In this document: positions 13,069 through 43,410 of the stretch, one piece after another
Position numbering within the stretch: the stretch's first letter is position 1
Layout of the letters: each line of letters starts with the position of its first letter
Assembly (NCBI GenBank): GCA_017983775.1
Contig: JAGOAT010000003.1
Coordinates: 1 to 43,410 of the forward strand
Reading direction: 5' to 3'
Source: Candidatus Saccharibacteria bacterium
Lineage (GTDB): Bacteria; Patescibacteriota; Saccharimonadia; JAGOAT01
Length of the DNA: 43,410 bases
The notes under the pieces: model-generated
Database searches by the model: none
Told to the model about the DNA's origin: nothing
Seen by the model: the letters and a program-made list of their open reading frames with translations, nothing else
Position numbers and translations under genes: made by a program

Positions 13069-13234
13069 TATAGCCACCCAAAACAAAACCTGTTCGCTTG
13101 GGAGTGATAGATTATAGATCTAGAATTGTTGTTATTGTTATATATCATATATATAGATAGGATGAGAAGTAATAGTGATAGTTATGTACCGTAAGATACA
13201 GTCAAAGGTATGGGGTTTGTTTTCGGGAGCTATA
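13069..13234. mobile_element. 166-bp MITE-like repeat, copy A
   Basis: Ends TATAGCCACCCAAAAC and, on the opposite strand, TATAGCTCCCGAAAAC, so it has terminal inverted repeats of about 22 bp with a few mismatches. The interior (CCTGTTCGCTTGGGAGTGAT onward) is repeated at 20685-20847 (inverted) and 33159-33324. It has no coding frame. TA at the outer ends would fit insertion at a TA dinucleotide as in IS630/Tc1-mariner elements, an inference. The remaining gap 12896-13068 shows nothing recognisable. Confidence 0.8.
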
Positions 13235-14058: not shown

Positions 14059-14215
14059 CTCGTCATCCTCCGAAACCCAGAGGGTTTATGGAGGATACAC
14101 CTCTGCTGATATTTAGATAATCACTTTATATGAGATACTGAATCTCCCATAAATCTTTGCAGGATTTTGGGAGATGACGGAGTGCGGGTTGTAAGATTTT
14201 GGAAGATGACGGGGT
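14059..14215. repeat. GTCATCCTCC-type dispersed repeat, copy 1
   Basis: Begins CTCGTCATCCTCCGAAACCC and closes with inverted versions (GGGAGATGACGG at 14169-14180, GGAAGATGACGGGG near 14201-14214). The middle (GATACACCTCTGCTGATATT) resembles those at 29933-30076 and 40811-40940. It fills the gap between tRNA-Leu and the FAD oxidase; 13875-14058 otherwise has only AT-rich DNA with the presumed tRNA promoter. Confidence 0.6.
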
Positions 14216-20684: not shown

Positions 20685-20847
20685 TTATCCCAAAAAAACA
20701 CACCCCAACCTTTGACTGTATCTTACGGTACATAACTGTCATATTACTTCTCATCCTATCTACATATATGATTTATCACAATAACAACAATTCTAGATCT
20801 ATAATCTATCACTCCCAAGCGAACAGGTTTTGTTTTGGGCGGCTATA
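20685..20847. mobile_element. MITE-like repeat, copy B (inverted relative to A and C)
   Basis: The right end reads TTTTGGGCGGCTATA, matching the TATAGC end of copies A and C on the other strand; the left end is degenerate (TTATCCCAAAAAAACAC). The interior (CCTTTGACTGTATCTTACGG onward) is the reverse complement of copy A with few differences. It ends 32 bp before the -35 box of the MarR promoter. Confidence 0.8.
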
Positions 20848-20878
20848 GCGATAATACTGAAAATACAAAAAAATCGAG

Positions 20879-23116: not shown

Positions 23117-25783
23117 ATGAAGAATAATTTTCTAAGTAAGATATCTTGGAATTTTGCAAGTAAATATCGTCTAACATTAATAATCTGGTTTGGACTATTG
23201 ATCTTTGGTTTTGCAAGCTACTCGACTCTGCTCAAAAAAGAAGGCTTCCCCCCAATCAATCTGCCAATTGGTGCCGTTCAGGGTACTTATTTTGTCAATG
23301 ATTCCACCAAGGTAGATACTGAAATCACCCAGCCAATCGCAAAAGCCCTGGAACCAATAGACAGCATTGATAATTATCAAGCTTCTACAGGCGCAAATTT
23401 CTACTCTATCTTTATTACGTTTAATGAAGAGACAAAAGTAGAGGATGGTGTCAGAGAAGTTCAGGCAGCTCTAAATGCAATTAAGTTGCCAACAGGAGCT
23501 ACTAGCAATGTTGCTAGTTTCGATCCCTCCAAATTTGACAACAAATACAATCTATTGCTTGCAGTCTATGACAAACAAGACTCTAACTATCAAGATCTAG
23601 CAATCAAAGCTACACAAGTTGCAGAAGAGTTGGCTGGAGCAGATGAGATTGTTGCTGCTCAAGCAGTACCAGTATTAGAAACGGTTATAAATCCTGCCGA
23701 TGGTCAATCTATTGAGAAACAAACTACTATCAACAAGATTGCAATTAATCAAGATGGAGAGACTACATTCTACCCAGCAGTTAATGTTGGCGTGGTCAAG
23801 GCTGAGGGGTTTGATGATCTAGAGCTCTCAAATGCTGTCGAGAATGTACTAGGGGATATTGATAATAATTCCCAAATTAAAACCAAGATCACTGCCGATT
23901 TTGCCACTACTATAAATCAACAAATTGCTTCTTTGCAAAGTAGCTTACTCTGGGGACTTTTTGCGGTGATCGTTGTGACTCTACTCTTGATTAGCTGGAG
24001 AGCAGCCCTTGTAATCTCACTATTTATCCCCACCGTCCTAGCTGGAACTTTTGCTGGATTATACACTATGGGGATCACCCTCAATACCATTACCCTATTT
24101 GCCGTAATCCTAACACTGGGGCTTTTTGTCGATGACGCAACCATCATAGTTGAGGCAATTGATGCTCACAGAAAAGATAGCAAAAAAAGTCGAGAGATTA
24201 TCCAAAAAGCAATTACACGTGTCGGAATAGCTTCAATAGCCGGTACCCTCACCACTATCCTTGTCTTTGCTCCGATGTTGTTTATCAGTGGTATACTAGG
24301 TAGCTTTATCAGACTTTTACCAGTGACGGTTATTCTCTCTCTTGGCTTATCTCTAGTCATATCGGTAACCTTGGTGCCTTTTCTAGCGAGACCTATTATT
24401 CTAGCAGGGTCTAATCGTGCAAAATTACTCGACAAACTCAGCCTCTTAGTACCAGTAGAAAAATTTCTGGCTGGCAAACTTTCCAAGCTGCCTCTACTCA
24501 ACCGTGACAAACCAAAACGTGGCAGACTGGTGACCCTCGCAATGGTCTCACTAAGTATCCTTGCCGTATTTGGAGCTGGAATATTTGCTGGAAAACTACC
24601 TATGGATGTTTTCCCTCAAAGCAAAGATAGTGATATTTTGCAAGCAACTGTTGAATTTGCCCCTGGTACCACAATAGAACAAGCTGAAAAAATCACTGAC
24701 AAACTTGATGCCAATATCATTACTGCAATTGGTGAAGAGCTGACCAATGTTAGCTACCTGTCTGCAAATGAAAGAAACGCTAGCCTCGAAATTGGCCTGA
24801 CCAGCTACAACGAACGCAAGCCAACCAGCCACCAGTTGATTGAACGACTGGAGAATACTGGACTTGATATTGATGGCGCGACTATTCAGTATTCTCAAAG
24901 AGATGCCGGTCCAGGTGCTGAAGAGTTTCCTTTTCAAATGAGGATCTATGGTCAAGATATCACCCTACTTGATTCTGCTGCAACCGAGATCTCAAACTTC
25001 ATTGATGAGCAAGAGTTCCAAATCAACGGCCAAGACTTGAATGTAGCTGAGGTAACAATAGACGAAGATGGCTCAATCAACCGTACCGAACAAGGTAGAT
25101 TCATCACAATTCTAGCGAGGTTTAGTAACCCTGACCTAAGTTCTCCTGCTATAATCGATCTAGAACAAGCTGTCAAGGATCAGTTCAATGAAGCCAAGCT
25201 TAAGGAGATAGGGCTACACCAAGACTCCTTAGATTTTGATGTTAGTCAAGAGAGCGAGAATACTGATAGCTTCAATTCAATTGGAGTTGGGCTAGTAATT
25301 GCCCTAATCATGATGTACTTCTTGTTGGTCATGCTCTACAACTCATTCCTGCTACCTATTTTGATTTTTACTGCCATACCATTTAGCTTATTTGGTGTAT
25401 TCTTTGGCTTGACTGTTACAGATAATTCTCTAAGCTTCTTTGTGATGCTAGGACTACTTGGACTAATCGGTATAGTCGTCAATAATACTATCTTATTGAC
25501 TGAATATGCTGAACAGGAAAGAGCTGGTGGTGCCGACCGTTGGACTGCAATTAGCAATGCCGTAAGGGATCGCTTCAGACCACTAGTTACCACTACCTCA
25601 ACAACAGTATTTGCCTTGATGCCACTCGCAATTAGTGATCCGTTTTGGCAAGCCTTGGCCTATACGCTAATATTTGGGATGCTATCTAGTACAATTCTAA
25701 TTATCCTTGCCTTCCCCTACTATTATCTTCTTGTCGCAAGAATTCGCGAATGGAAAGATAGGGTTTTGCCTGGTCTCAGATGA
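23117..25783 (+). CDS. RND-superfamily efflux permease (AcrB/HAE1-like)
   Basis: An 888-residue protein with two halves, each one helix, a large extracytoplasmic domain and five more helices. GLFVDDATIIVEAID (about 336-350) carries the proton-relay Asp pair of AcrB helix 4, and the second half has LIGIVVNNTILLTEYAE. It is shorter than AcrB (~1050), mainly in the outer domains. No membrane-fusion protein or TolC is encoded nearby. In a cell without outer membrane it would work alone, as MmpL-type RND proteins do. AAAGGA at 23100-23105 is the ribosome site. Overlaps the next gene by ATGA; head of a four-gene operon. Confidence 0.88.
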   Translation: MKNNFLSKISWNFASKYRLTLIIWFGLLIFGFASYSTLLKKEGFPPINLPIGAVQGTYFVNDSTKVDTEITQPIAKALEPIDSIDNYQASTGANFYSIFITFNEETKVEDGVREVQAALNAIKLPTGATSNVASFDPSKFDNKYNLLLAVYDKQDSNYQDLAIKATQVAEELAGADEIVAAQAVPVLETVINPADGQSIEKQTTINKIAINQDGETTFYPAVNVGVVKAEGFDDLELSNAVENVLGDIDNNSQIKTKITADFATTINQQIASLQSSLLWGLFAVIVVTLLLISWRAALVISLFIPTVLAGTFAGLYTMGITLNTITLFAVILTLGLFVDDATIIVEAIDAHRKDSKKSREIIQKAITRVGIASIAGTLTTILVFAPMLFISGILGSFIRLLPVTVILSLGLSLVISVTLVPFLARPIILAGSNRAKLLDKLSLLVPVEKFLAGKLSKLPLLNRDKPKRGRLVTLAMVSLSILAVFGAGIFAGKLPMDVFPQSKDSDILQATVEFAPGTTIEQAEKITDKLDANIITAIGEELTNVSYLSANERNASLEIGLTSYNERKPTSHQLIERLENTGLDIDGATIQYSQRDAGPGAEEFPFQMRIYGQDITLLDSAATEISNFIDEQEFQINGQDLNVAEVTIDEDGSINRTEQGRFITILARFSNPDLSSPAIIDLEQAVKDQFNEAKLKEIGLHQDSLDFDVSQESENTDSFNSIGVGLVIALIMMYFLLVMLYNSFLLPILIFTAIPFSLFGVFFGLTVTDNSLSFFVMLGLLGLIGIVVNNTILLTEYAEQERAGGADRWTAISNAVRDRFRPLVTTTSTTVFALMPLAISDPFWQALAYTLIFGMLSSTILIILAFPYYYLLVARIREWKDRVLPGLR

Positions 25784-33158: not shown

Positions 33159-33324
33159 TATAGCCGGCCCTAACCAAAACCTGTTCGCTTGGGAGTGATA
33201 GATTATAGATCTAGAATTGTTGTTATTGTGATAAATCATATATGTAGATAGGATGAGAAGTAATATGACAGTTATGTACCGTAAGATACAGTCAAAGGTA
33301 TGGGTTTTGTTTTCGGGGGCTATA
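33159..33324. mobile_element. MITE-like repeat, copy C
   Basis: Left end TATAGCCGGCCCTAACC, right end on the other strand TATAGCCCCCGAAAAC; same orientation as copy A, same 166-bp length and nearly identical interior from CCTGTTCGCTTGGGAGTGAT onward. It fills most of the gap between the small membrane protein and the dioxygenase gene. Confidence 0.8.
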
Positions 33325-35598: not shown

Positions 35599-37626
35599 AT
35601 GGATCACCACAGCCACCATAGCCATCAAGACCATCAAGGTACCCCCCATGCAAATCATCAAGATCATGATAAACACGCCGGTCACAACCCCGAGATGTTC
35701 AAGAGAAAATTTTGGCTATCATTAGTATTCACCCTACCTGTTCTCTATTTCTCGCAAACTATACAAGATTTATTGAGCTACAAAGCACCTAGTTTTATAG
35801 GAAGCGAATATATCCCAGCTATTTTTGGCATAATTATATTCCTCTATGGTGGACTGGTTTTTCTCAAGAGTGCAAAGATAGAAATTGCCAATCGTCAACC
35901 TGGCATGATGACACTTATCTCACTAGCAATCAGTGTTGCCTTTGTCTATAGCTCACTAATCACCCTCAAGATTGTTGAAGGAATGGACTTCTGGTGGGAA
36001 TTAGCTTCTTTGGTAACCATCATGTTACTCGGTCACTGGCTAGAAATGGCCTCAGTATCAAATGCACAAGGTGCTCTAAAGGAACTTGCAAAGTTGCTCC
36101 CCGACAAAGCCGATTTGTTAACAAAATCTGGCACAAAAAAAGTAGCTATTACAGAACTCAAGGTTGGTGATCGAGTTCTAATCCGCCCAGGCTCAAAAAT
36201 ACCGGTTGATGGTCTGGTGACCCAAGGTCAGTCCAAAGTTGACCAATCAATGCTCACAGGAGAATCCAAGCTTGTAGACAAAGCAATAGGTGATCAATTA
36301 GTAGCTGGTACAGTCAATGGTAGTGGCTCACTGAGGATGGAAGTAACCGGGATCGGCGACAATACAGCACTAGCCGGAATCATCAAACTAGTATCAGAAG
36401 CCCAGAACAGTAAATCCAAAACTCAAATTCTTGCTGACAGGGTCGCTGGATACCTTTTCTATATTGCTCTCATTGCAGCACTTATTACAGCTATTGGCTG
36501 GGCAATTGCTGGTCAGTCAAGTGGCTATATTTTGGAAAGAGTTGTAGCAGTACTGATCATCGCCTGTCCACATGCATTGGGCTTAGCAATCCCTTTGGTC
36601 ACAGCAATCTCAACTAGCAAGGCTGCTAATGCGGGCGTAATTGTTCGAAAACGCAGTGCCCTTGAATTGATACGCGTAGTTGATGTAATCCTGTTTGACA
36701 AAACAGGAACCCTGACTACTGGCAAGCAAGGAGTTGTAGAAATCATCGCTAATGACCAAGCAAAGCTTCTTGCTATTGCCGCTGGAGTCGAACAAGATTC
36801 TGAACATCCCATAGCAAAGGCTATTCTAGCAAAAGCCAAAGATATGAATATCAAGACAAAACCCGTTACCAACTTCAGCGCACTTGAGGGCAGAGGCGCA
36901 AAAGCACAGATTAACAATACAACATACTACTTAGGAGGCCCAAGACTATTGGAAGAACGGAAATTGATATTAGATATGACCCTACAATCAGCAGCTAGGC
37001 AAGCACATCAAAATGGCCAAACAATAGTATACTTGACGAATAACAAAACAATTCTTGGTGCCTTTATGATAGCTGATACTATTCGCAGCGAGTCAATACA
37101 GGCAATCAACTTATTGCAAAATGCTGGCAAGAAAGTTGCAATCGTCACTGGTGATTCAAAGGGTGTAGCAAAATGGGTTGCGAACAAACTTAATATTGAT
37201 CAATACTACGCTGAGGTATTACCAAAGAACAAATCTGATGTAGTCAAAAATATACAAGAAAGTGGCTCAAGGGTAGCTTTTGTTGGTGATGGCGTCAATG
37301 ATGCTCCAGCACTTACTCAGGCAGATGTCGGTATTGCTATTGGTGCGGGTACGGACGTTGCAATTGAATCAGCAGGTATAGTCCTTGCTAGTAGCAATCC
37401 TCAAGGAGTTAGCCAGATAATCAATTTGTCAAAAGCTACTTATCGAAAAATGCAACAGAACCTCATCTGGGCTACTGGTTATAACATTATTGCCATACCA
37501 CTTGCTGGAGGGGCATTAGCAAATCTAGGAATTATGCTCTCCCCTGCTGTAGGTGCAATCCTGATGTCATTATCGACCATCATAGTAGCCATCAATGCCC
37601 AGAGTCTAAAAAAACTCAAGATATGA
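35599..37626 (+). CDS. copB: Copper-exporting P-type ATPase, CopB (P1B-3) type
   Basis: A 675-residue pump. The N-terminus is His rich ([20 protein letters not shown], about 1-32) without a CxxC domain. Eight helices follow. The actuator has LTGES, the ion path helix has [12 protein letters not shown] (CPH, about residue 324, the mark of CopB and P1B-3 pumps), the phosphorylation site is FDKTGTLT (Asp about 367), HP locus SEHPIAKAI, and hinge [10 protein letters not shown]. It exports Cu(I)/Cu(II) or Ag(I) from the cytoplasm. Middle gene of the operon; its TGA overlaps the ATG of the oxidase. Confidence 0.95.
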
Positions 37627-39092
37627 ATAAGCCTACCTATCGACAAAGACTGACTAAATCCGGAATTGCAATTATTGCCTTGCTAGTAATCATGATTGGA
37701 TGGCGTGAGTATAGTAAATCAATGACGACAAATGACCACGCCAAACAAAGATCCGATAATTATTCCAATCAGCTACAGGTACCCCCTCTGCTTGACTACA
37801 CCAAAGTAGATGGCATCAAACTATTTAATCTAAATGCTCAGAAAAGTACCTATCAATTCTCAGCTGATGCTATCTCAGAGACCTATGGATACAATGGTCC
37901 AATTCTTGGCCCAACCATCAGGGCAACCAGAGGAGATAAGCTAGATATCGCAGTGACCAACAACCTTGATGAGCAGACTACTTCACATTGGCATGGTGCA
38001 GTTGTCCCAGGAGATGCCGATGGTGGTATTCACAATATCATCAACCCAAATGAGACTTGGCATGCCAAGTTTACTGTCAGTCAGCCAGCAGCTACTCTTT
38101 GGTATCACCCCCACCAACACCAAGAAACAGCCAAGCAAGTCTACAACGGCCTAGGTGGTTTTTTGATCATAGATGATCAAGACTCTAGCTCGCTTGGACT
38201 ACCAACAAACTATGGAGTTGATGATATCCCCTTGGTAATTCAATCAAAAAAACTCGATCAGTCAGGTAAACTTGAGCCCTATCAAGTATCACACATGGAG
38301 CAAGCTCAAGGACTTGAAGGCAATACTATCATGCTAAATGCTCAAGTCAAGCCGTATCTCAATATTAGTACCAACTTAATCCGCCTAAGATTACTCAACG
38401 GCTCGAACAGTGATACTTACAATGTATCACTTAGTAGTGGTCAAGAATTTTATGTAATCGGAACCGATGGTGGACTACTCGAGCAACCAGTTAGCGTCAC
38501 TACACTAGAACTCACCACTGCAAAAAGATATGAGATACTAATCGACAGCTCCGCTATCACTGGTGATAACCCAGCACTAATGATTAACAACTCAGCTGAA
38601 CTATTATTCACCAAAAAAGAACAACTTACTGATAAGTATACCCTGCCTAACTCCCTTATAAAATTTGATGAACTCCCAAATGCAGAAATTGATCGAGACT
38701 TTGATCTAGGGATGTTGATGGGCAATCAAGATTCAATGATGAGTGGTAGAATGAACTTTGGGATCAATGATCAATCATTTGATAGTAATAGAATAAATTT
38801 CACAGTCAATGCTGACTCCCTGGAGTATTGGCGCATATACAATGATCCTTCTGGCATGAGCACAAATCATCCCTTTCATATTCATGCTACGCAATTCCAA
38901 ATCATCTCAATAAATCAGGAAAAACCACCAGATTTACTACGAGGATGGCATAATACAATAGATCTAAAACCTGGTGATGAAGTAGTATTGGCTGTTCCGT
39001 TTGCTGAGAACCTTTCGGGTACATATATGTATCACTGTCACATCCTAGAACACGAAGATGCCGGCATGATGGGACAGTTTCAGATACAATGA
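37623..39092 (+). CDS. Multicopper oxidase (CueO/laccase-like), membrane anchored
   Basis: A 489-residue three-cupredoxin oxidase. A basic start and one hydrophobic helix (about 13-28) anchor it outside the membrane. Copper motifs are in order: [28 protein letters not shown] and [15 protein letters not shown], giving the trinuclear and type 1 sites (Met axial ligand likely). A Met-rich stretch ([17 protein letters not shown]) near 365-385 is reminiscent of CueO copper-sensing segments. It oxidises Cu(I) to the less toxic Cu(II), or phenols, using oxygen. Overlaps the pump gene by 4 nt. No twin-arginine signal is visible. Confidence 0.93.
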
Positions 39093-39179: not shown

Positions 39180-40745
39180 TCAATGCTTCACCAGGTATTC
39201 ACTCACTATCTCCAGAATCTTCCCCCCGTATTCATCCAGCTTTTGTTGACCAATGCCCTTAATCCCTGATAATGACTTAGGGTCGGTCGGATTAGTAGCA
39301 GCAATTAGCTTCAGGGTATTGTCACTCAATACAATATAGGCTGGGACTTCCTTAATTCTAGCCTGCTTTGTCCTCCAATTTTTCAGTGACTCAAAAAGCT
39401 CTGGATCATAATTATCAAGTAGCTTGTCCTCATCTGATTTCAATGCCACTTGAACTCTCTGATGAAGTTTACTGAGCTTGGATTGAGAGATCTTGACCAA
39501 TTCAGCCTGCGTAGCCCTCGATCTTTCAATCAGCTTTTGATCCAACTTCGCTACAACTGGGCTGACCTCCAATGCCCGATCATTGATTCCTCTGATATAT
39601 ACACCTTCTAGCGAGCGAACCCTAGACAGGGCTACATACCCCATACCTGGCTCAAATGATCTACCCAGATCTATCTCAGCTGCATCTAGACTCATACCTT
39701 GACTCTTATGGATAGTAATAGCCCAAGCTAACCTAAGTGGTAGCTGATTGATCTCAGCTACAGTCCTATCACCATCTTGCATCTTCCAACTAAATGGAGT
39801 CACGGTTATTTCCCTATTATTAGTCCTCACAATCGGATAATCCGCCGGATCAAATCCTATGACTCTACCTAAAGTACCATTATAATAACCTTCCGCTGGA
39901 TTGTTGGCGACAAACATCACCCTTGCCCCAATCTTTAGGTTTAATGTCTCAGGAGCAAGACAGCTAGCAACCATTGACTCAATCACCCGCTTGTTACCAT
40001 GGCTTTCTAGCTGGTAACTGACTTCTTCACCTCCAATCTGCCTTAGTTGATCTTGATTGATCTGATCGACTTGAGCATTGTGTGTGTAGAGTCGAGTGAC
40101 CAGCTGATTTTCGGGTAACTGATCTTCGATATACCGAGCATCCAGGCTACTAATATGATCTATCGTAACTGATTGATCTCGAATTGCATTGAGAATAACT
40201 AAGAGCCGATCATCTTCCTGACGATGTTGTTCAGCTAGGTAACAAATCTTTAGATTCATCCTCTCCCAAGCTTCTGATTCAAATACAAAACTGACTTGAC
40301 CCCTCCGATCGACTGGAGGCAACTGGAATAAATCCCCAGACAGAACTACCTGCAACCCGCCAAAAGGTTTATCATCCTCTCGTAACTCCGAACAAACCCG
40401 ATCAATTAAATCTAGTCTCTTACCGTCTAACATTGAGATCTCATCGATGATTAAGACTTTGGTTGACTTGAGACTTTTGACAAGCTTTGCTTTACTTTTC
40501 AATCTAATGATCTCTTGATCGGTCAACTGATCTGCTATGCCAATCCCCGACCAAGAATGGATGGTCATTCCTCCGAGGTGGGTAGCAGCTATCCCAGTAC
40601 TCGCTGTCACAGCTACTTTGATCTTATTTTTACGCAATATGCCGATAAACTTGTTGAGTACAAATGTCTTGCCACTCCCTGCCGCCCCAGTCAGATAGAC
40701 ATTGTGTCCTAGTAGCATTACATCTAGTGCCTGACTTTGTTTCAT
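39180..40745 (-). CDS. PIF1/RecD-like helicase with C-terminal HRDC domain
   Basis: A 521-residue SF1B helicase. Walker A GAAGSGKTF, motif Ia TASTGIAATHLGG, Walker B VLIIDEISMLD, motif III VVLSGDLFQLPPV, motif V/VI region AITIHKSQGMSLD and YVALSRVRSLEG are clear. An HRDC-like domain (about 450-515) ends with LSGIKGIGQQKLDEYGG. Helicases of this type unwind G-quadruplexes, forks or R-loops. An in-frame ATG at 40763 exists, but TATACT (40757-40752) lies between, 6 nt before the ATG at 40745, so the shorter form is chosen. Convergent with the multicopper oxidase, 87 bp apart. Confidence 0.9.
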   Translation of the reverse strand: MKQSQALDVMLLGHNVYLTGAAGSGKTFVLNKFIGILRKNKIKVAVTASTGIAATHLGGMTIHSWSGIGIADQLTDQEIIRLKSKAKLVKSLKSTKVLIIDEISMLDGKRLDLIDRVCSELREDDKPFGGLQVVLSGDLFQLPPVDRRGQVSFVFESEAWERMNLKICYLAEQHRQEDDRLLVILNAIRDQSVTIDHISSLDARYIEDQLPENQLVTRLYTHNAQVDQINQDQLRQIGGEEVSYQLESHGNKRVIESMVASCLAPETLNLKIGARVMFVANNPAEGYYNGTLGRVIGFDPADYPIVRTNNREITVTPFSWKMQDGDRTVAEINQLPLRLAWAITIHKSQGMSLDAAEIDLGRSFEPGMGYVALSRVRSLEGVYIRGINDRALEVSPVVAKLDQKLIERSRATQAELVKISQSKLSKLHQRVQVALKSDEDKLLDNYDPELFESLKNWRTKQARIKEVPAYIVLSDNTLKLIAATNPTDPKSLSGIKGIGQQKLDEYGGKILEIVSEYLVKH

Positions 40746-40810
40746 ACCTGTAGTATAACCCAACTTATCATATTAGCCCAAGCTGAATGATGCCTCCTCA
40801 GCTGACGGCC

Positions 40811-41000: not shown

Positions 41001-41348
41001 TTATATTTTAAGTGCTCTAGTCATTTGTTTACGTCCTCTCGCTGATACACCACCCCAAACACCATCCACTACCCCATGTCTTAGCGCATAGTTCAAACAT
41101 GGAATACTAGCTGGGCAACCTTGGCAAACTCTTAGAGCCGGCGATATAGACCCCGTTGGTCCTGGAAAAAATAAGTCGGTAGGCTTATCTGAACAGGCTG
41201 CAAATTCACGCCAAGCTTGGCTATCATCACTAGGCATTGGATGATCAGAATAATCAACAGGACTATCTTTTCTTCCATCTGACTTATCGTAGCGAGTAAA
41301 AGTGGTATCAACCGCACCATCATATTCTTCTCCCCAATTTTGTTCCAT
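41001..41348 (-). CDS. whiB: WhiB-like (Wbl) iron-sulfur transcription factor
   Basis: A 115-residue protein with the Wbl pattern: Cys52, Cys75, Cys78 and Cys84 (C-X22-C-X2-C-X5-C, in FAACSDKP, RVCQGCPASIPCLNYA), the DGVWGGVSARGRK turn and basic tail. Wbl proteins hold a 4Fe-4S cluster sensitive to oxygen or NO and act with the main sigma factor. The family is typical of Actinobacteria and their phages. The 48-residue acidic N-terminus before the domain is unlike any I know. An ATG at 41369 is in frame, but TATTAT (41363-41358) falls inside and ends 9 nt before the ATG at 41348. TTGCAA, 18 nt further up, is the -35. Confidence 0.9.
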   Translation of the reverse strand: MEQNWGEEYDGAVDTTFTRYDKSDGRKDSPVDYSDHPMPSDDSQAWREFAACSDKPTDLFFPGPTGSISPALRVCQGCPASIPCLNYALRHGVVDGVWGGVSARGRKQMTRALKI

Positions 41349-41378
41349 TATCACTTGATAATACCTCAACTACTATGA

Positions 41379-41396
41379 TCATTGCAAGCATGAGCA
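41379..41396 (-). promoter_or_regulatory. -35 region and shared upstream motif of the whiB-like gene
   Basis: TCATTGCAAGCATGAGCA on the plus strand is the partner of 28296-28313. Minus-strand TTGCAA within it is placed 18 nt before the TATTAT box. Confidence 0.4.
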
Positions 41397-41472: not shown

Positions 41473-42207
41473 CTATAGCTCTTTGCTTTGGGATATCTCT
41501 GGATACTTCTGAATGATTTCTTCAGCAAGTTTCCCTATGGTCTCATTGATCACCTCACGCACATCGACCTCATCTGCTACTTCAGCCATGGCGACTGCAA
41601 GATCTTGATAGAAATCTTCATCCCCGGTAAGTCTATACCAAAATTCCTTGCCAGAGTAAACCATGTAGCTTTCGGAAACTTTTTTGATATTTGCGTTCAT
41701 TTCTTCTGGTTCCCCGTATATTACACCCAATACCAAATCGTCCAGTTGGATGGGGAGACTATTTTGCCTTGCAAGGTTTTTAACGGCGTTAAAGTGATCT
41801 GATATTGTCTTGACATCATCTCTGTTTAGAGCATTTGGCCCAGCTTTTAACTGGCAATATTTTCTTCTTCCGTCCACAGTATCAATGAATTCAATATCTA
41901 TTCCAGACACTGCTGATCCGAAGTTTTCATCAGAAAAAAGTGTTGCTATAAACTGCTGAACACTTGAACCGAACGTTGTCGTAATAGAAGTTCCTAGAAT
42001 TCGCGGCAAAATCAATACCTCTGCAAGTGACCTGTAATTAGTATCCCCCTTGTAGTAGTTCGCAAGATAAGGCCACAGGAATGGATTTATCTTAAACTCT
42101 TTTAGTGAAGCTAGCTTTTTAGTGTTCTCAAGATGATTGGAAATTAGGCTGGAGCGCATCCAGTCTTTTGCTCTTATTATAATCTTCTGCTTGTCTTGCA
42201 AGTTCAT
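41473..42207 (-). CDS. Type II restriction endonuclease, PmeII-like
   Basis: A 244-residue protein. KINPFLWPYLANYYKGD and LAEVLILPRILGTSITTTFG are conserved blocks of the PmeII-like restriction enzymes as I recall them. GIDIEFID (Asp104, Glu106) followed by YCQLKAGPN (Gln119-x-Lys121) forms a PD-(D/E)XK site with Gln in the third acidic position, a known variation. It would cut unmodified DNA at the site protected by the methyltransferase whose gene overlaps its start by 80 bp. Recognition site unknown. Confidence 0.82.
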   Translation of the reverse strand: MNLQDKQKIIIRAKDWMRSSLISNHLENTKKLASLKEFKINPFLWPYLANYYKGDTNYRSLAEVLILPRILGTSITTTFGSSVQQFIATLFSDENFGSAVSGIDIEFIDTVDGRRKYCQLKAGPNALNRDDVKTISDHFNAVKNLARQNSLPIQLDDLVLGVIYGEPEEMNANIKKVSESYMVYSGKEFWYRLTGDEDFYQDLAVAMAEVADEVDVREVINETIGKLAEEIIQKYPEISQSKEL

Positions 42208-43410
42208 TTGAATTCATTATATCAAAGATACCTGTTTCAACAATCTGATGACCAAGAGCTTTGACAACCGGAGGAGATACAGCATTGCCAAACTGTTTCT
42301 GAGCACTATAATCACTGTCGTGACAAATAAAACTGTCTGGAAAGCCCTGGATCCTTGCCGCTTCCCTTGAAGTTACTTTTCGGTATTTACCTTCCTTGAA
42401 TATCTTGTCAATGAATAACTTCTTGTATTCTGTTGGATCACTACACTCAAGGTAGTCGGTGGCGATAAAATCTCGTGTACCAGTAGCTGTTAGTGTTGAA
42501 AAAATCAGTGAATTTGGCAAGAAGACACGATATACTCCATCAATTCCTGATGAGTTCTTTGAATTGACTAGAGTATATTTGCCATCATCCGTTATCTTCA
42601 GAATGTTCTTTTTGACAAGAGAGCTTAAAACTTCTACTCCTGCATTTGGGACCAACTCCTTAATATCTTCCAGTGACATGGGATTTCCATCTGCCGAGCC
42701 ATAGCGCTTCTTGCGACGATTCTTCATGATAGCGATGCAGACATCTTTTTCTAGACTAGTTGTTTGATAAATCTCCCATGAATGAACAGTTGTGTGTCCA
42801 CCCCTGGTATCACAAAATATAAAGAAATCATTCAATTCATCAATTTTTTGAAATGCATTCCGTGATCTAGGTATATTTGCCCCATGGATCAAATGAGGAT
42901 CAAATGAAGTCTTCTTTATCTCAAGATGAGACAATCCCTCAATGAGACTACCAACAGGTCTATTTTTTTTGATAGGCTTTGGATAACTAAATTTTGCCGC
43001 AAACTCCTGCATATCTGATCTGAAGCCCACCAGAAAAACTCTGCTCCTATTTTGTGGTGCGCCGAAGTCATATGAGTTTAGGAGTTGATATCTAACCAAG
43101 TAACCAATCTCCTGGAAGCAATTGATGATGAGCTCTATATTCGCCCTATTTCTGGGATCGACAAGCCCCTTAACGTTCTCAAAAATAAATGCTTTTGGTC
43201 GTGCTATCCCTACCATACGAATAGCATCGTACCAAAGCTTACCACGAGGATCATCAAACCCTCTTTTTTTGCCCGCTACAGACCAAGACTGGCAGGGCAC
43301 ACCACCAACAATTAGATCGACCTCTGGTAATTCTTTGATTTCTGTAACATCCCTAAGTTGTAATCTTCGGGATTGTTAAAGTTTTCTAAGTATGTTTCAA
43401 TCGCTTTCTT
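42128..43410 (-). CDS. DNA (cytosine-5) methyltransferase, incomplete at window edge and frameshifted
   Basis: Motif IV VDLIVGGVPCQSWS with the catalytic Cys, motif VI FIFENVKGL, motif VIII QNRSRVFLVGF, a ~200-residue target-recognition region, motif IX SREAARIQGFPDSF and motif X KQFGNAVSPPVV. The frame with these motifs has a stop at about 43378-43376. The homologous sequence further 5' (KKAIETYLENFNNPEDYNLG) is in another frame; adding one G to the GGG at 43353-43351 joins the two as ...NLG-DVTEIKELPEVD. So it is frameshifted by one base or misread. A GTG at 43300 is not a plausible start, as motif IV would lose its strand. Motif I lies outside. It would modify the site of the endonuclease. 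Confidence 0.82.

Follow-up and report, generated by a model that had tools for sequence, protein, structure and literature searches.

A WhiB-like regulator gene in a Saccharibacteria genome, probably one of a Wbl repertoire long kept by the class

WhiB-like (Wbl) proteins have been described as "exclusively found in Actinobacteria" (review PMC6282962) and as "exclusive to Actinobacteria" (PMC10245118). For the mycobacterial WhiB3-SigA complex, a few residues are critical. Alanine at F31, F32 or W76 of WhiB3, which correspond to F17, F18 and W60 of WhiB1, abolishes the complex, and the SigA substitution H516A abolishes WhiB3 binding (PMC10245118). In the openly available papers searched, no report of WhiB in Saccharibacteria, Patescibacteria, or the Candidate Phyla Radiation (CPR) was found. 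Many Saccharibacteria are epibionts on Actinobacteria, and to our knowledge very little has been established about transcription control in their reduced genomes.

Here, a Wbl gene was followed up in a 43,410-nt stretch of DNA (the window, which is the whole stretch analysed) on contig C3 of a genome (G000) of 786,922 bases, 97.4% complete with 0.03% contamination. The genome belongs to the class of Candidatus Saccharibacteria and not to the Actinobacteria, and the window has a GC content of 41%. An earlier note, made from the window's letters alone, had seen no actinobacterial traits and had considered an epibiont of Actinobacteria. The genome is indeed of CPR type, and the contig is not from an AT-rich actinobacterium. 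A second genome of the same family (f1) was not present in the samples drawn.

The wbl gene occupies 41001..41348 on the minus strand and encodes 115 amino acids from an ATG, the likelier start. The longest frame (41001..41369, minus strand) begins with TTG and encodes 122 amino acids. The earlier note had given 41001-41396, which overshoots the 5' end by 27 to 48 nt. Whole-genome profile matching (62.7 bits), alignments and column conservation delimit the Wbl domain proper to 41022..41213 (minus strand). The protein covers the full Pfam Whib profile (PF02467, positions 1-65 of 65) and scores 61.6 bits, where the cut-off is 23.6. Counted from the ATG, the cluster cysteine pattern C-xn-C-x2-C-x5-C is complete (C52, C75, C78 and C84), the G[I/V]WGG turn of the family reads GVWGG, and the sigma-contact aromatics W3, F17, F18 and W60 of WhiB1 are present as W46, F60, F61 and W98. 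Among solved structures, the best sequence matches were Streptomyces venezuelae WhiB (9e-13) and then Mycobacterium tuberculosis WhiB1 (2e-11). The AlphaFold model (mean pLDDT of 71.7, first 21 residues disordered) matched WhiB, WhiB1 and WhiB3 with a match probability of 1.00. All significant structure matches of the model were Wbl proteins, and the majority of these structures also contain sigma-A region 4 or come from RNA polymerase (RNAP) complexes. The Wbl identity of the protein, already read by the earlier note from the four cysteines and the turn, is far above chance level.

A perfect 7+2+7 palindrome of 16 bases (ATTATCA-AG-TGATAAT, read from the sequence at 41347..41362, minus strand) lies over the wbl start codon and also spans a -10-like hexamer. 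The palindrome is a possible operator, and autoregulation of wbl at this site would be only a guess. Just 5' of the gene, a weak sigma-70-like promoter match (TTGCAA-18-TATTAT, 9/12) was located at 41358..41387 (minus strand), and matches as good as this one occur at chance frequency in the region. The same genome holds a second Wbl sequence (G000:C6:3713-3877, within L003 3704-3880) that lacks an in-frame ATG, GTG or TTG start and is altered at its C terminus, after the GIWGG turn. It is therefore a probable remnant.

The gene is not an isolated case. In the class sample, Wbl proteins were detected in 109 of 393 genomes (28%) and in 77 of 153 genera, with up to five copies per genome. When a phylum sample of 380 genomes was searched, 18 were positive, all within the Saccharibacteria class, and Wbl was absent from the sampled genomes of the other Patescibacteria classes. 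As a control, the same search on 14 named genomes gave a match in Corynebacterium glutamicum alone. Genus g8, sampled with 25 genomes, is missing from the positive list, so loss of Wbl is common too. Long sequences carry the gene, including the complete genome of Ca. Saccharibacteria GW2011_GWC2_44_17 (CP011211.1; 1,038,683 bases; G453:C1), contig SCKX01000001.1 of Ca. Microsaccharimonas sossegonensis (795,961 bases; G485:C1) and contig MKSN01000001.1 of Ca. Saccharibacteria 49-20 (904,897 bases; G419:C1). In some loci (L105, L128, L138, L146, L121 and L126), two to four Wbl genes that differ strongly from one another stand in tandem. Thus, with 109 positive genomes in this class, Wbl is not restricted to Actinobacteria and their phages, of which the earlier note said that it is considered a hallmark.

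Gene order was analysed by clustering the neighbours from open reading frames (ORFs) called in 100 fetched Wbl loci. The commonest setting was dnaG, rpoD, in some loci a kinase gene on the opposite strand, wbl and polA. In about 24 of the 100 loci, from family-level groups f2, f9 and f163, polA follows close behind wbl on the same strand, compared with about one such locus expected by chance from a simple proportion. Both CP011211.1 and the 796-kb contig of Ca. Microsaccharimonas sossegonensis have wbl between rpoD and polA, and about a quarter of the Wbl loci adjoin a sigma gene. The dnaG-rpoD-polA frame itself was found across the class, with or without Wbl (L155, L159, L164, L179, L180, L189, L196, L213, L221, L235, L261, L270, L274 and L293). 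In many species, the slot just before polA is filled by a divergent sigma-70 paralogue (for example, in L159, L164, L179, L180, L196, L213, L221, L235, L261, L270 and L274). Other recurrent places of wbl, with gene names read from cluster sequences, are beside gltX, between dnaE and rplS, between ddl and leuS, and after rpoA-rplQ-rplM-rpsI. Such recurrent, conserved places argue for long residence rather than for stray transfers. The wbl of the window lies outside the rpoD slot.

Taken with the complete domain, this distribution suggests that the window gene is probably a working WhiB-like [4Fe-4S] regulator and a member of a Wbl repertoire long kept by the class, and that part of gene control in Saccharibacteria probably relies on Wbl. 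The family would go back to one or more ancient acquisitions from Actinobacteria or their phages, after which it was for the most part inherited vertically, was lost in places and diverged quickly. From the genomic observations, we infer the cluster, sensing and docking steps as follows. The four cysteines would carry a [4Fe-4S] cluster, and the W, FF and W residues would dock on a sigma factor at its region 4. For the window copy, this partner would be RpoD (G000:C2:7420-8511); no second full sigma-70 was found in the genome. With the cluster intact, the protein may redirect RNAP at some promoters, and damage to the cluster by O2 or NO would put an end to this redirection. The sensing of redox change on the host side that the earlier note suggested would be speculation. 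In addition to RpoD, the sigma-70 set of the genome comprises one region-4-only protein and one weak region-2 match. A protein encoded at L156 1-786 (G000:C7) has a sigma-70 region-4-like N terminus, no region 2 and then other domains, and it may compete with sigma for RNAP.

The origin of the family was examined with a tree of 139 Wbl domains over 72 columns. The IQ-TREE result intermixes Saccharibacterial, actinobacterial and phage proteins, and at least six changes are needed to account for its supported branches; since 59 of the 136 branches are unsettled, the number of transfers is left unstated. Saccharibacterial proteins of WhiB1-, WhiB2- and WhiB4-like type group with their actinobacterial counterparts, and entry of Wbl into Saccharibacteria was therefore probably ancient and multiple. 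The tree fits either repeated entry long ago or a single entry by a set that had already diversified. The earlier note had proposed that the gene came from the host or a phage. An old actinobacterial source is suggested by the tree, in which the window copy itself is weakly placed, but a recent stray gene does not describe the family. The broad vertical presence that speaks against a stray is largely found in the genome and genus counts, together with the conserved order, and a recent transfer of the whole family was ruled out by its distribution and gene order.

The window copy, taken by itself, could have arrived recently from an actinobacterial host or an actinophage, with no relation to the older Saccharibacterial set and perhaps together with its restriction-modification (RM) neighbours. 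The window gene adjoins a patchily distributed RM pair outside the rpoD-polA slot, and its best profile-free matches are the viral contigs L364, L430 and L438 (E of about 1e-18), with the Saccharibacterial L115 marginally behind (8.5e-18). FastTree with the viral contigs included groups it with L438 and L430, though the branch is weakly supported. However, it sits on a long branch, and IQ-TREE without the viral contigs places it among Saccharibacteria only, also with weak support. Its nearest relatives, split between Saccharibacteria and the high-GC viral contigs, share just 42-51% domain identity. The gene has 43.7% GC, near the 41% of the window, while the related viral contigs have 66-71%. 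A scan of 84,980 species with the protein's own 8-residue words gave no relative. A recent arrival is rather unlikely, and membership in the long-kept repertoire remains the preferred reading.

The Wbl-sigma interface bears on the way in which the regulator acts. Across about 115 Saccharibacterial Wbl proteins, the alignment columns hold the four cysteines at 100%, W3 at 97%, F17 at 90%, F18 (F or Y) at 85% and W60 at 85% (WhiB1 numbering). The aromatics that contact sigma region 4 are among the best-conserved Wbl residues. On the sigma side, the RpoD C termini of 58 further class genomes, the window genome and about 78 named loci were read. The SigA motif at position 516, LRHPSR in the M. tuberculosis sequence, has as its counterpart LRKHKD, LRKHRES, LRKNKD or similar in all of them, whether Wbl is present or absent; in the window genome, this region reads LRNNRD. 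The equivalent of SigA His516 is missing from every sampled Saccharibacterial RpoD, replaced nearly always by Lys and in the window genome by Asn. With this residue exchanged, the contact has to be built anew in its details compared with mycobacteria. With the Wbl face kept and the best known sigma contact changed, either the docking is rebuilt, possibly via neighbouring His or Lys residues, or the partner is another sigma-like protein. Covariation of RpoD positions 516-517 with Wbl presence was also considered and gave no clear pattern, with Lys516 near universal and His/Asn517 tracking Wbl loosely.

Sigma-70 domains were found in two of the Wbl proteins examined, from genomes of two families (G633 and G499). 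The G633 fusion (L128:7010-8377, minus strand; G633:C14:11012-12376; 455 aa) comprises Sigma70 r2 (4.9e-11), r3 (2e-4) and r4 (9e-6) followed by Whib (5.7e-10). The G499 fusion (L328:1438-2973, minus strand; G499:C3:100768-102300; 511 aa) comprises Sigma70 r2 (1.8e-9) followed by Whib (9e-7), and Pfam did not recognise a region 4 in it. It lies directly 5' of polA in the rpoD slot, and the gene of the ordinary RpoD is found on that strand too, some 3 kb upstream. An LKHP stretch in this fusion is suggestive by eye of a kept His516-Pro517, but MAFFT does not align it there. Other genomes of G499's family and the single relative of G633 are without a fusion, so both fusions are young. No sigma-Wbl architecture was found in the literature searched. 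These fusions are a direct genomic sign of Wbl acting through sigma. As a tentative proposal, the rpoD-polA locus of Saccharibacteria may house a dedicated sigma-Wbl module, in which Wbl, divergent sigma paralogues and fusions are interchangeable. In a fusion, the Wbl domain, set beside region 4 or substituting for it, would make an iron-sulphur-gated sigma factor.

The genomic evidence thus supports a putative action of the Saccharibacterial Wbl proteins on sigma. The earlier note's suggestion of an interaction with the cell's own sigma factor becomes the best-supported mode, by rpoD synteny, conserved contact aromatics and the two fusions; of the contact it had pointed to at sigma-A region 4, the Wbl half is kept and the RpoD His516 half is replaced. 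That replacement, in all sampled RpoD, might also mean that these proteins work off sigma, as DNA-binding or thiol-redox proteins whose sigma linkage is a relic, and WhiB1 has been claimed to have disulphide-reductase activity (in a reference given by PMC12369343). In that case, however, the sigma-contact aromatics would be free to drift, and they rank among the most conserved residues; the fusions and the slot shared with sigma paralogues also speak against a relic, which we regard as improbable.

Upstream of the window gene on the same strand lies an EcoO109I-type restriction endonuclease gene (41473..42207, minus strand; PF14511, 111 bits) and, further upstream, the C5-cytosine DNA methyltransferase gene of the same RM pair (42128..43300, minus strand; PF00145, 200 bits, with the profile matching from position 69), the true 5' end of which may lie beyond the ORF start. 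The order M-R-wbl on one strand, the gap of 125 nt that separates the endonuclease stop codon from the wbl ATG, and the palindrome over the wbl start would suit a Wbl that controls the adjacent pair in place of a C protein. However, the endonuclease is above cut-off in 5 of 255 class genomes and adjoins Wbl in the window genome alone. In the other four it lies away from any Wbl: in G228, Wbl is 134 kb away on the same contig, in G501 it is on another contig, and G270 and G371 have none. The pair is also absent from all other Wbl loci (more than 100). C proteins are small, XRE-type helix-turn-helix proteins of conserved RM operons, and the window protein has a Whib domain alone and no conserved linkage. 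A controller role is very unlikely and was rejected for want of linkage elsewhere, and the endonuclease is probably context and not a working part of the wbl system.

Downstream of wbl, a PIF1-type helicase with an HRDC domain is encoded at 39180..40763 (minus strand; PF05970 and PF00570). Its pairing with Wbl recurred in one further case (G527) and was taken as chance. Between the two genes lies one copy of a repeat starting GTCATCCTCCGAAACCC, found in the window at 14062, 28392 and 40841, and its 14-mers also turn up elsewhere in the sequenced portions of the genome. A dispersed intergenic repeat of about 157 nt is present in three copies that are about 95% alike (13077-13234 and 33168-33324 on the plus strand, 20689-20848 on the minus strand). 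Palindromes CGCGGACAGTCCGCG occur in two pairs in the window, the members of each exactly 45 nt apart (12228/12273 and 20287/20332), and look like a paired extragenic element. Other observations in the window are the overlapping genes of a P-type ATPase and a multicopper oxidase (35599-39092), which look like an operon for copper handling although the genome is reduced, and an 888-aa RND-type (AcrB/MMPL) transporter (23117-25783) in a presumably single-membraned bacterium.

Contamination of the assemblies by actinobacterial DNA, which may explain individual short-contig copies such as L071, a WhiB1-type protein very close to actinobacterial WhiB1 on a 6.5-kb contig of a 190-contig metagenome-assembled genome, has next to no probability for the family and was ruled out, as a complete genome and near-megabase contigs hold wbl in conserved Saccharibacterial gene order and the window genome shows 0.03% contamination.

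The wide, syntenic presence of Wbl in Saccharibacteria breaks the rule of exclusivity to Actinobacteria and makes the class a second natural system for Wbl-sigma regulation. It also raises a testable question of gene flow between the epibionts and their Actinobacteria partners. As single proteins, the sigma-Wbl fusions could give access to a complex that is otherwise transient.

Compared with known systems, the window protein is nearest, in sequence and fold among solved proteins, to WhiB of S. venezuelae and WhiB1 of M. tuberculosis, with which it has in common the domain, the four cysteines and the W, FF and GVWGG elements. It differs from them in being just 35-44% identical in the structural match, in a 40-residue low-confidence N-terminal extension and a weakly basic C terminus, and in a CPR host whose RpoD is without the His516 contact. 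With the WhiB proteins of mycobacteriophages and actinophages (PHROG 472 and others), it again shares the domain; 756 phage records match (PHROG 472 best, at 71 bits). However, annotated phages are at most 44% identical over two thirds of the protein, and the window gene is chromosomal, with no genes for phage structural proteins close by in the portion examined. Sigma-70 factors such as RpoD are comparable in that two Saccharibacterial chains combine sigma-70 domains with a Wbl domain. At the level of the domain, the kind is already known; new are its spread through a whole lineage outside Actinobacteria, its place at an rpoD-polA locus that sigma paralogues also occupy, and its fusions with sigma.
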